A DNA stretch of 51,596 bases. It comes from Sphingopyxis sp. (GTDB lineage Bacteria; Pseudomonadota; Alphaproteobacteria; Sphingomonadales; Sphingomonadaceae). Both the position numbers and the translations under genes were made by a program. Positions within the stretch are counted from its first letter, which is position 1; every line of letters begins with the position of its first letter. The notes under the pieces were generated by a model. It saw nothing but the letters and a program-made list of their open reading frames with translations. It was not told the DNA's origin and made no database searches. The DNA is taken from positions 1-51,596 of the forward strand of contig JAEULK010000033.1 in NCBI GenBank assembly GCA_016793775.1, given 5' to 3'. Shown in pieces: positions 65-3,687 of the stretch.

Positions 65-510
65 TCTCAACGCCTCCTCACAGAAACCGTTGAATCACAT
101 TCACGGCAGAACGGGAACCCGCTTATTGGGTCCGGACCCTAGTACGCTGCGCTCCGGGTCACGGAAAACCACCATTTTCGGCACGTCATCTTCTGAATGT
201 CGATCGGCCCTAGAGGATTCGCGCAGCGGCGCGGAAGCCGCAGAGAAATTTGGTTCACGCGGAGACGCGGAGACGCGGAGAAGAAAAGAGAATAGCGGCT
301 TTGCCGCCTCTATTCCTTTTCCTCTGCGATCTCTGCGCCTCCGCGCGAATCTTTCTCTCTTTCTTCTGTCTTTTCTCCGCGCCTCCGCGTCTCCGCGTGA
401 ACCATAGTCCACCGCCTCCCGCACCGAACCGGCTCTAACGATAAAGCTCTTTTCTCAACCAAAGTAATAATGTATCATCATTCCATCGGTTCGAGCCAAG
501 GGAGAGGGCG
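65..510. other. Gene-free gap holding an IS end and a long palindrome
   Basis: No credible gene lies between the transposase start and the ATG at 511; the short frames here are by-products of the repeats. The gap contains the presumed outer end of the insertion sequence (about 65-110), the inverted repeat described separately at 253-402, and around it diluted GCGCAGAGG-type motifs (about 216-246 and, inverted, 322-350). The last 20 bases include a strong GGGAGAGGG ribosome-binding site (501-509) for the gene at 511. I see no clear sigma-70 promoter. Confidence 0.6.
253..402. repeat. 150-bp inverted-repeat element, ORF-less relative of the element at 2489
   Basis: The left end begins GTTCACGCGGAGACGCGGAG and the right end is its reverse complement. 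Including one flanking base on each side, the arms match over about 30 positions with roughly one mismatch. The same 20-base terminus also bounds the GxxExxY gene at 2489-2926. The interior is purine-rich on one side and pyrimidine-rich on the other and has a small CGGC/GCCG hairpin near 295-305. No coding potential and no flanking direct repeat are evident (ATTTG on the left, CATAG on the right). It resembles a MITE or a solo repeat pair. Confidence 0.8.
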
Positions 511-2478: not shown

Positions 2479-2488
2479 GGCCCCAATA

Positions 2489-2926
2489 GTTCACGCGGAG
2501 ACGCGGAGGGGGACAGTGAAGGACATCGACGTCGTGAGTGGCGATGTGCTGGACCTGTCTCTCCGGCTGCACCGTGACTTGGGTCCCGGCCTGCTCGAGA
2601 GCGTTTATGAAACGGTGTTGGCGGGCAAGCTTATTCAGATGGGCTATAAGGTCGATCGGCAAAAGCCGATCGACATTCGGTTCGAAGATATGCGCTTCGA
2701 GGCGGCGTTTCGCATCGACTTGCTCGTCGATGACCGGCTGCTGGTCGAAATCAAGTCGGTCGAGCGGCTCAATGCCGCGCATGGCAAACAGCTCTTGACC
2801 TATCTGTGCCTCACCGGCCAAGCGGTCGGCCTGCTGATCAACTTCGGCGGCGCCACGCTCAAGGAGGGTGTCCGGCGCGTCGTCAACGATCATAAACCCT
2901 CCGCGTCTCCGCGTCTCCGCGTGAAC
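2489..2926 (+). mobile_element. Inverted-repeat cassette carrying a GxxExxY gene, flanked by CAATA direct repeats
   Basis: The left end GTTCACGCGGAGACGCGGAG (2489-2508) and the right end (the reverse complement ending at 2926) are perfect inverted copies over 20 bp. The right end carries one additional GACGCGGAG unit. Immediately outside, CAATA occurs at 2484-2488 and again at 2927-2931, as a 5-bp target-site duplication would look. The only gene inside is the GxxExxY protein; no transposase is present. The insertion lies between the propeller gene and fabG. Removing the element and one CAATA copy leaves a plausible short intergenic region. Mobility is inferred from structure. Confidence 0.65.
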
Positions 2927-2932
2927 CAATAA
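2516..2932 (+). CDS. GxxExxY family protein (PD-(D/E)XK nuclease-like)
   Basis: With the GTG at 2516 this is a 138-residue protein. It carries the signature GLLESVY (GxxExxY) inside LGPGLLESVYE (about residues 22-32). Further on, RIDLLVDDRLLVEIKSVE supplies the D...ExK pattern of a PD-(D/E)XK nuclease fold (PF13366/TIGR04256-type). Catalytic activity and biological role of the family are not established. The ribosome-binding site GGAGGGGG (2505-2512) is part of the left inverted repeat, and the last residues (about SASPRLRVNQ) are encoded by the right inverted repeat, with the stop in the flanking CAATA. The gene is therefore fitted exactly into the element. A longer in-frame opening extends back into the propeller gene but would translate the left repeat, so I prefer the GTG. 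Confidence 0.85.
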   Translation: MKDIDVVSGDVLDLSLRLHRDLGPGLLESVYETVLAGKLIQMGYKVDRQKPIDIRFEDMRFEAAFRIDLLVDDRLLVEIKSVERLNAAHGKQLLTYLCLTGQAVGLLINFGGATLKEGVRRVVNDHKPSASPRLRVNQ

Positions 2933-2946
2933 AGGAACTGACCCAG

Positions 2947-3687
2947 ATGTTCGATCTCACCGGCATGACTGCCCTCGTTACCGGCGCTTCGGGGGGTATC
3001 GGCTCGGCCATTGCGCAGGCGCTGGCGGCGCAGGGTGCGCGGCTGGCGGTATCGGGGTCCAATGCCGACAAGCTGAACGCCTTCCGCGACAGCCTCGGCG
3101 GCGATCATGTGGCGCTGCCGTGCAACCTCGGCGACGGCGCCGAAGTCGATGCGCTGGTTCCCACGGCGGCCGAGGCGCTCGGCAAGCTCGATATCCTCGT
3201 CAACAATGCCGGGGTCACCCGCGACAATCTGATCCTGCGGATGAAGGACGAGGAGTGGATCGACGTCATCCGCATCAACCTCGAGGCCAATTTCCGCCTC
3301 GCGCGCGCCGCGGCCAAGCCGATGATGAAGGCGCGCTTCGGGCGCATTATCTCGATCACCAGCGTCGTCGGCGCGACGGGCAATCCGGGGCAGGCGAACT
3401 ATGCCGCGTCAAAGGCGGGCGTCACCGGGATGACCAAGGCGCTGGCGCAGGAACTGGCGAGCCGCGGCATCACCGTGAACTGCGTCGCGCCGGGGTTCAT
3501 CGCCACCGCGATGACCGCCGACCTGCCCGATGCGCAGAAGGAGGCGCTCAACACGCGCATCCCCGCGGGCCGCATGGGCGAGGGCGAGGATATCGCCGCC
3601 GCGGTCGTCTATCTCGCCTCGAAGGAAGCGGGTTATGTCACCGGCCAGACGCTGCATGTGAACGGCGGCATGGCGATGTTGTCATAA
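2947..3687 (+). CDS. fabG: 3-oxoacyl-[acyl-carrier-protein] reductase FabG
   Basis: A 246-residue short-chain dehydrogenase that reduces 3-oxoacyl-ACP with NADPH in fatty-acid elongation, in the cytoplasm. Visible features are the nucleotide-binding TGASGGIG (residues 12-19), NNAGVTRDNL (the NAG motif, with the RDNL typical of FabG), Ser139, and the catalytic Tyr152-x3-Lys156 (YAASK). The C-terminal GQTLHVNGGMAM is also typical of FabG. The length fits the family. An AAAGGA ribosome-binding site lies at 2931-2936, right next to the end of the GxxExxY element. That insertion may therefore have separated fabG from its original promoter. No acpP or fabF is adjacent. Confidence 0.93.
   Translation: MFDLTGMTALVTGASGGIGSAIAQALAAQGARLAVSGSNADKLNAFRDSLGGDHVALPCNLGDGAEVDALVPTAAEALGKLDILVNNAGVTRDNLILRMKDEEWIDVIRINLEANFRLARAAAKPMMKARFGRIISITSVVGATGNPGQANYAASKAGVTGMTKALAQELASRGITVNCVAPGFIATAMTADLPDAQKEALNTRIPAGRMGEGEDIAAAVVYLASKEAGYVTGQTLHVNGGMAMLS

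Follow-up and report, generated by a model that had tools for sequence, protein, structure and literature searches.

GxxExxY genes between mirror-image ends, and scattered hairpins with the same ends, suggest a partnership of an enzyme with a spreading repeat

Introduction

Why does a small nuclease-family gene lie between two perfect mirror-image ends, in a bacterial genome over which short hairpins with the same ends are scattered? GxxExxY genes, of which this is one, appear in the annotations of many bacteria with no function assigned. The window (the whole stretch of DNA analysed here, 51,596 bp of Sphingopyxis sp., contig JAEULK010000033.1) contains one such gene, and a preliminary description, made from the letters of the window, took the protein and its ends for a single transposing or homing unit with a 5-bp target-site duplication. 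The arrangement of gene, ends and scattered hairpins suggests instead an enzyme in partnership with a spreading repeat.

The cassette and its protein

The features of the window on which this study is based are as follows.

254..401 (arms 254-272 and 383-401), no strand: 148-bp gene-free hairpin element with subtype A ends, found by end matches and absent from the preliminary description
2484..2488, plus strand: CAATA, left copy, abutting the left arm; judged a chance match
2489..2508, plus strand: left arm of the inverted repeat, subtype A, 8-bp periodic (from the sequence and arm comparison)
2505..2509, plus strand: GGAGG, likely ribosome-binding site as judged from the sequence, at the inner edge of the left arm
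2516..2932, plus strand: GxxExxY gene, GTG start, 138 amino acids, PD-(D/E)XK family (TIGR04256, PF13366)
2907..2926, minus strand: right arm, perfect complement of the left arm (inverted-repeat comparison)
2927..2931, plus strand: CAATA, right copy, abutting the right arm and overlapping the stop codon; judged a chance match
2947..3687, plus strand: fabG (short-chain dehydrogenase family), right-hand neighbour, which marks the orthologous site in other genomes

The perfect 20-bp inverted ends of the preliminary description are present at 2489-2508 and 2907-2926, where they bound the segment 2489-2926, and the periodic run of the right arm extends inward as far as 2897. The 19-mer end, with up to three mismatches allowed, has seven matches in the window (some of them shifted overlaps) against 0.03 expected, and the inverted arms are far beyond chance. 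The GTG at 2516 is the likely start of the gene. The earlier reading that the gene borrows from both repeats also holds: GGAGG, the likely ribosome-binding site, comes from the left arm, and the last codons run through the right arm, which encodes the C-terminus, with the TAA stop (2930-2932) just beyond it. The left neighbour is a gene for a beta-propeller domain (PF09826), not fabD. The genome from which the window comes (G000; 3.93 Mb in 106 contigs) carries two GxxExxY genes, which lie inside paired ends spanning 436 and 476 bp.

The protein is a member of TIGR04256 (115.2 bits, E = 2e-33; curated cut-off 35 bits) and matches the family PF13366, PDDEXK_3 (116.1 bits, E = 1.5e-33; cut-off 22). 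Residues D68, E78, K80, Q92 and Y96 are invariant in all 22 aligned sequences, and we take D68, E78 and K80 to be the catalytic motif of the PD-(D/E)XK fold. A structure model of the protein has a pLDDT of 89.9. Profile searches with the window protein returned TIGR04256, PF13366 and a sub-threshold Cas4 match, with no Y1 and no transposase family among them; the absence of a Y1 match rules out that the protein is itself a RAYT. Searches of the literature accessible to us, as distinct from the comments of NCBIfam and Pfam entries, found no link between the TIGR04256/PF13366 family and a repeat family, and the repeat-end sequences themselves were not found in literature text.

One family of arms throughout the genus

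Forty of the 80 genomes of our genus set hold a total of 65 matches to TIGR04256, of which two are truncated and three are interrupted by a stop. An inverted repeat of one 8-bp-periodic family, roughly (R)CRCRRAG, encloses every one of the 65 genes. The arm scores of 64 of the 65 cassettes exceed the maximum of 65 control windows; the lowest score, 13 (in G058), is also reached by four of the 65 control windows.

We sorted the arms into subtypes labelled A to I, labels coined in this analysis. On a tree of 63 protein cores, from which the arms had been excluded, these subtypes need eight changes, which is the minimum for nine groups, against a mean of 41.7 when shuffled. Left and right arms match with a score of 25.2 within their own cassette and of 10.0 across subtypes; thus, the two arms of a cassette change together.

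The gene at few loci

At least one flank is common to another genome in 64 of the 65 cassettes. When cassettes were joined by single linkage on at least one common flank, a procedure in which some links may be loose, they fell into groups of 23, 11, 10, 8, 8, 2 and 2 and one single. The largest group is the fabG-side locus, with fabD and fabG on either side in most genomes. In two genomes the same subtype is represented by two genes, C in G019 and B in G030, and a decayed cassette with a shortened and broken gene and still recognisable arms lies at the fabD-fabG locus of G047 (L062). Purifying selection acts on the GxxExxY genes: the median dN/dS of each of five subtypes (A, B, C, E and G) lies between 0.058 and 0.101, with many synonymous sites near saturation.

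The same position is occupied outside the genus, where 15 of the 80 wide loci described below (L145-L159, mostly Sphingomonas but also Novosphingobium and kin) have the gene between fabD and fabG, one of them (L154) with about 850 bp in between, and where a plasmid record of Sphingomonas parapaucimobilis has it likewise. The record L145 (QDFQ01000005.1) is titled Arthrobacter sp. TPD3018, and its fabD-GxxExxY-fabG arrangement is sphingomonad-like, with a fabG 83 percent identical to that of the window; its title may therefore be wrong.

The CAATA copies

The exact CAATA copies that had been reported at both ends are present (2484-2488 and 2927-2931), and they are the sole exact 5-bp flank repeat among the 65 cassettes. 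The target-site duplication that they had been taken for has no counterpart in the wider data: the signal is absent from the 65 cassettes and from 14 short gene-free elements of G000 and G022. Exact flank repeats of at least 4 bp occur in two of the 65 cassettes, against 0.88 expected from re-paired flanks, and flexible repeats of at least 5 bp in eight, against 6.4 expected and a maximum of 11. None of the 14 short elements has an exact flank repeat of 2 bp or more, and one has a flexible repeat of at least 5 bp, against 1.2 expected. Many families of MITEs and insertion sequences lack or lose target-site duplications, so a missing duplication is weak evidence.

The nearest cassette, that of G073, has AAAATAATGG on its left flank and CCAATAAAGG on its right. 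If its boundaries are left free, AATAA stands on both sides, which is the best point in favour of a duplication; CAATA itself stands on the right side only. Type A cassettes at fabD-fabG have CCGGTAA or CCGGCAA as their right flank.

We looked for the empty site with a single CAATA, by which the preliminary description proposed to check its claim. Of 78 loci examined, both fabD and fabG could be placed in 70, and 47 of these 70 have a gene-free spacer of 3-29 nt. CAATA occurs in none of the 47 spacers, which is the result that the preliminary description had named as speaking against its claim, although the left neighbour of these spacers is fabD, unlike that of the window's cassette; in twelve of these genomes a GxxExxY gene lies at another place. 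In G042, which has the same left neighbour as the window's cassette, an unrelated reading frame of 189 amino acids, with no Pfam match, replaces the cassette, so that no clean empty site of the window's own context was found. A homing endonuclease element would be expected in a conserved recognition site, whole in genomes that lack the element; here the position of the cassette is intergenic with respect to fabD and fabG, and the spacers are too diverged for an insertion junction to be read; neither an exact junction nor a target duplication was found in the cassettes, the short elements or the sites compared. The region of G042 in question (L056, 762-1591) comprises the 189-residue frame and a stretch encoding a fabD-like C-terminus, hinting that the beta-propeller gene may have come to lie next to fabG in an old rearrangement.

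The CAATA pair is probably a chance match rather than a target-site duplication. That the cassette itself transposes or homes, and produced a CAATA duplication when it did so, would agree with its perfect ends, the exact flanking copies, the nuclease fold and the AATAA repeat of G073, yet the 65 genes sit in about seven flank-sharing groups, the fabD-fabG position recurs in the 15 wide loci and the plasmid record, and the cassettes and gene-free spacers give the counts above; we consider this reading largely refuted and most improbable. What was seen in the sequence is confirmed, and the link of the protein to its ends holds in all 65 cassettes, whereas the duplication and the jumping cassette are not supported. 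The gene is largely immobile, and what is scattered is a short gene-free element with the same ends.

Gene-free hairpin elements

Elements that have the ends of the cassette and no gene are about 80-230 bp long, and most of those in the five genomes inspected measure about 130-170 bp. In G000, the 19-mer end has 32 matches with up to three mismatches. Twelve of these were left out, namely eight shifted overlaps and four other three-mismatch matches, two of them apart from any element; the remaining 20 ends all lie in facing pairs, which constitute eight short elements of 130-168 bp and the two gene cassettes. Subtype A ends, cassettes included, are in facing pairs in 40 of 46 cases in G008, 16 of 21 in G009, 12 of 12 in G011 and 42 of the 48 listed (of 49) in G013. 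Neighbouring genomes differ in their short elements: at the site L228, an element is present in G022 and another at the same place in G071, with none in G040, G051 and G054.

Several details of these elements may be recorded here. Further degenerate periodic repeats are nested inside the element of the window (254-401) and just outside it. Three elements (L003 937-1093, L004 994-1161 and L229 896-1071) contain an inner palindrome of the CTTCGACAAGCTCAG type; with inner palindromes in some short elements, the same ends enclose different contents. At L227, about 1150-1215, part of another palindromic repeat, with many matches in G022, G040 and G071, adjoins the element. A second architecture is seen in subtype C, whose ends also form pairs that face outward (minus then plus) and span about 50 bp, as at G030:C8:20837-20884, G034:C1:20048-20096 and G000:C89:40045-40093.

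Copy number and gene presence

For each of the 80 genomes of the genus set we counted the exact ends of subtypes A, B and C, the three covered, and subtracted two copies per cassette. The median number of gene-free copies is 10.5 in the 40 genomes with the gene and 0 in the 40 without it (p = 3.7e-8), and five or more copies are found in 29 of the former and four of the latter. The 70 most complete genomes give the same medians. Genomes with the gene of a given subtype hold more copies of that subtype than genomes whose GxxExxY genes are only of another (p = 2.5e-5 for A, 0.02 for B and 0.006 for C). The sharpest comparison is that beside fabG, where cassettes of different subtypes occupy one locus: scattered A copies outnumber B copies in all 13 genomes with an A cassette, and B copies outnumber A copies in six of nine with a B cassette, with two ties and one reversal (A versus B cassettes, p = 0.0006). 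Exceptions exist in both directions: G071 has 19 gene-free copies and no gene detected, and in G019, G058, G060 and G076 the gene is accompanied by next to no copies of these three subtypes.

Might gene and hairpins both be old, and have been lost together in some lineages, with no functional tie? The genomes are related, and absence of the gene is mildly clustered on the tree (21 changes against 25.2 when shuffled, with 31 of 500 shuffles as low). In a comparison by independent pairs, for which we used a fabG tree covering 75 genomes, the contrasts lean one way. For any gene, at a threshold of three copies, 7.1 pairs go the same way and 0.0 the other (median p = 0.016), and likewise at five; for the A gene and A copies, the figures are 8.1 to 0.0 at five copies (p = 0.008). 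Several of these tests fall short of significance: any gene at thresholds of one and eight copies (p = 0.125 and 0.06), A at three copies (5.4 to 0.0, p = 0.06), and B at three or five copies (4.0 to 0.0 and 3.2 to 0.0, p = 0.125 and 0.25), while C is uninformative (1.3 to 0.3 at three copies and 2.0 to 0.3 at five), the p values for B and C ranging from 0.125 to 1. The fabG tree places G022 and G040 next to each other, and they differ in both respects together: one has the gene as well as exact copies of A, B and C, the other neither. Nor would shared ancestry alone lead one to expect that subtypes match at one locus or that the association recurs in distant phyla; we judge it to be quite unlikely as the explanation.

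A second alternative is that the hairpins are non-autonomous elements moved by a RAYT or insertion-sequence transposase, the GxxExxY gene being merely enclosed and using the ends for its expression or mRNA stability. The gene does appear to draw its ribosome-binding site and C-terminus from the arms. Moreover, a search for Y1_Tnp, the only transposase family covered, found matches in 15 of the 80 genomes, among them the one from which the window comes; the median is eight copies where a Y1 transposase is present and one where it is absent (p = 0.005). The effect is seen among genomes without the GxxExxY gene (2 versus 0, p = 0.008) and is not clear among those with it (16 versus 8.5, p = 0.32). 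Yet Y1_Tnp is absent from several of the richest genomes (G073, G064, G013, G062 and G034), and in the 65 genomes that lack it the effect of the GxxExxY gene persists, with a median of 8.5 copies in the 30 with the gene and 0 in the 35 without (p = 2e-6). Passive enclosure also leaves unexplained that all 65 genes are enclosed, that the arm subtype follows the protein tree, and that the scattered copies switch with the subtype at a single locus. We hold this alternative to be unlikely, although it deserves more weight than shared ancestry. The match in the window's own genome, of RAYT type, is at G000:C84:3697-4026.

The nuclease might, thirdly, be a guard that cuts or limits the hairpins, or part of a defence system in which the repeats mark self. 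The PD-(D/E)XK fold is in keeping with such a role, as is the weak similarity to the PADLOC models for Cas4 and for a reverse-transcriptase-associated PDDEXK (E = 3e-4 to 6e-4). A guard should, however, lower the copy number, yet gene-bearing genomes hold more copies; the largest group of cassettes is at a housekeeping locus, fabD-fabG; and there are hits in none of 50,697 phage records and in seven of 72,556 plasmid records. This third reading seems to us very unlikely.

Recurrence beyond the genus

Two conserved peptide patterns, scanned against named genomes, gave at least 588 stretches, at least 575 of them relatives; the best 80 were kept, so that this wide set favours closer relatives. 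An inverted repeat scoring at least 14 flanks 62 of these 80 wide loci (the best 80 of at least 575 relatives, from many phyla) and none of 64 control windows. A stricter motif, periodic and inward-facing on both sides, is found at 55 of the 79 loci that have enough flank (of 84), against none of 68 controls, and fails on one or both sides at the other 24. Outside the sphingomonads, the strict motif is present on both sides at 33 of 54 loci and on one side only at 12 more. Loci from Verrucomicrobia, Planctomycetota, Chloroflexi, Desulfobacterota and some Bacteroidetes pass; both Acidobacteria loci and several Bacteroidetes do not, and a Fusobacteria and a Bernardetia plasmid have the motif on neither side.

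When one mismatch at most is allowed, a degenerate 25-base end has 1006 occurrences in 40 genomes, against 42 of the reversed pattern, and it is present at least once in 38 of these 40 gene-bearing genomes from several phyla. The 40 were picked by hand for spread among the 80, and outside the genus the count covers gene-bearing genomes only.

That protein and ends belong together is borne out by the 65 genus genes and the 62 wide loci flanked by an inverted repeat, and the finding that would have spoken against it, GxxExxY genes generally without such ends, did not occur in either set. The association of GxxExxY genes with hairpin repeats is thus broader than had been proposed.

A proposed mechanism

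We think it slightly on the probable side of even that the window holds the enzyme gene of a REPIN/RAYT-like pair, in which the enzyme is a PD-(D/E)XK nuclease and not a Y1 transposase. A wider statement, to which we give somewhat less than even credence, is that GxxExxY is a nuclease-fold counterpart of RAYT that propagates widespread hairpin repeats of the CACGCRRAG type, its function being the mobilisation of hairpins. The data show that gene and ends are associated, that the match of subtypes follows the protein tree, that presence of the gene goes with the number of gene-free elements, and that the gene keeps its position and is under purifying selection. That the nuclease spreads the hairpins is inferred by us from the REPIN/RAYT-like pattern, together with the effect of the GxxExxY gene in genomes without Y1, for which reason we propose this nuclease as the enzyme that recognises the ends.

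In this scheme, short hairpins with an 8-bp-periodic inverted end are scattered over the genome, and for each subtype a largely immobile, vertically inherited gene sits between two copies of that end. The GxxExxY nuclease would recognise its cognate end, probably with the hairpin or cruciform extruded, a recognition that the subtype matching supports. It may then bind and cut the hairpin, or its cruciform or single strand; the cut could allow the hairpin to reach other sites at a low rate, by copying or by insertion, and host repair would complete the process, as is thought for RAYT transposases and REPINs. Enclosure of the gene by its own ends may keep enzyme and end matched by linkage. The tie to repeats would give the GxxExxY protein a testable substrate, and it accounts for the repeat-coded ends of these proteins.

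Comparison with known systems

MITEs and insertion sequences with terminal inverted repeats resemble the present system in that they include short gene-free elements with inverted ends. They differ from it in three respects: here the 65 cassettes and 14 short elements give no duplication signal, the gene-bearing form does not spread, and the profile searches gave no transposase match for the protein.

REPINs and their RAYTs are closer. According to two studies (PMC3116915, PMC8049555), the RAYT gene is resident and vertically inherited and is flanked by its repeat, repeat and gene co-vary, and genomes with the gene have more repeats. Both systems have short hairpins made of facing pairs in many scattered copies; both have, for each type of repeat, a fixed and vertically inherited gene that is flanked by the same repeat and co-varies with it; and in both the genomes with the gene hold more repeats, as in the medians of 10.5 and 0 for A, B and C. 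In contrast, the enzyme here is of a PD-(D/E)XK nuclease family and not a Y1 HUH transposase, the ends are 8-bp-periodic runs, about 20-40 bp in length, which stand as inverted arms on either side of the gene, and the elements are mostly about 130-170 bp long in five genomes. Having no Y1 match, the GxxExxY system is not a member of the REPIN-RAYT group, but it may work like one. The tie between GxxExxY and repeats suggests that REPIN-like systems may have had more than one origin, with enzymes that are not related to each other.
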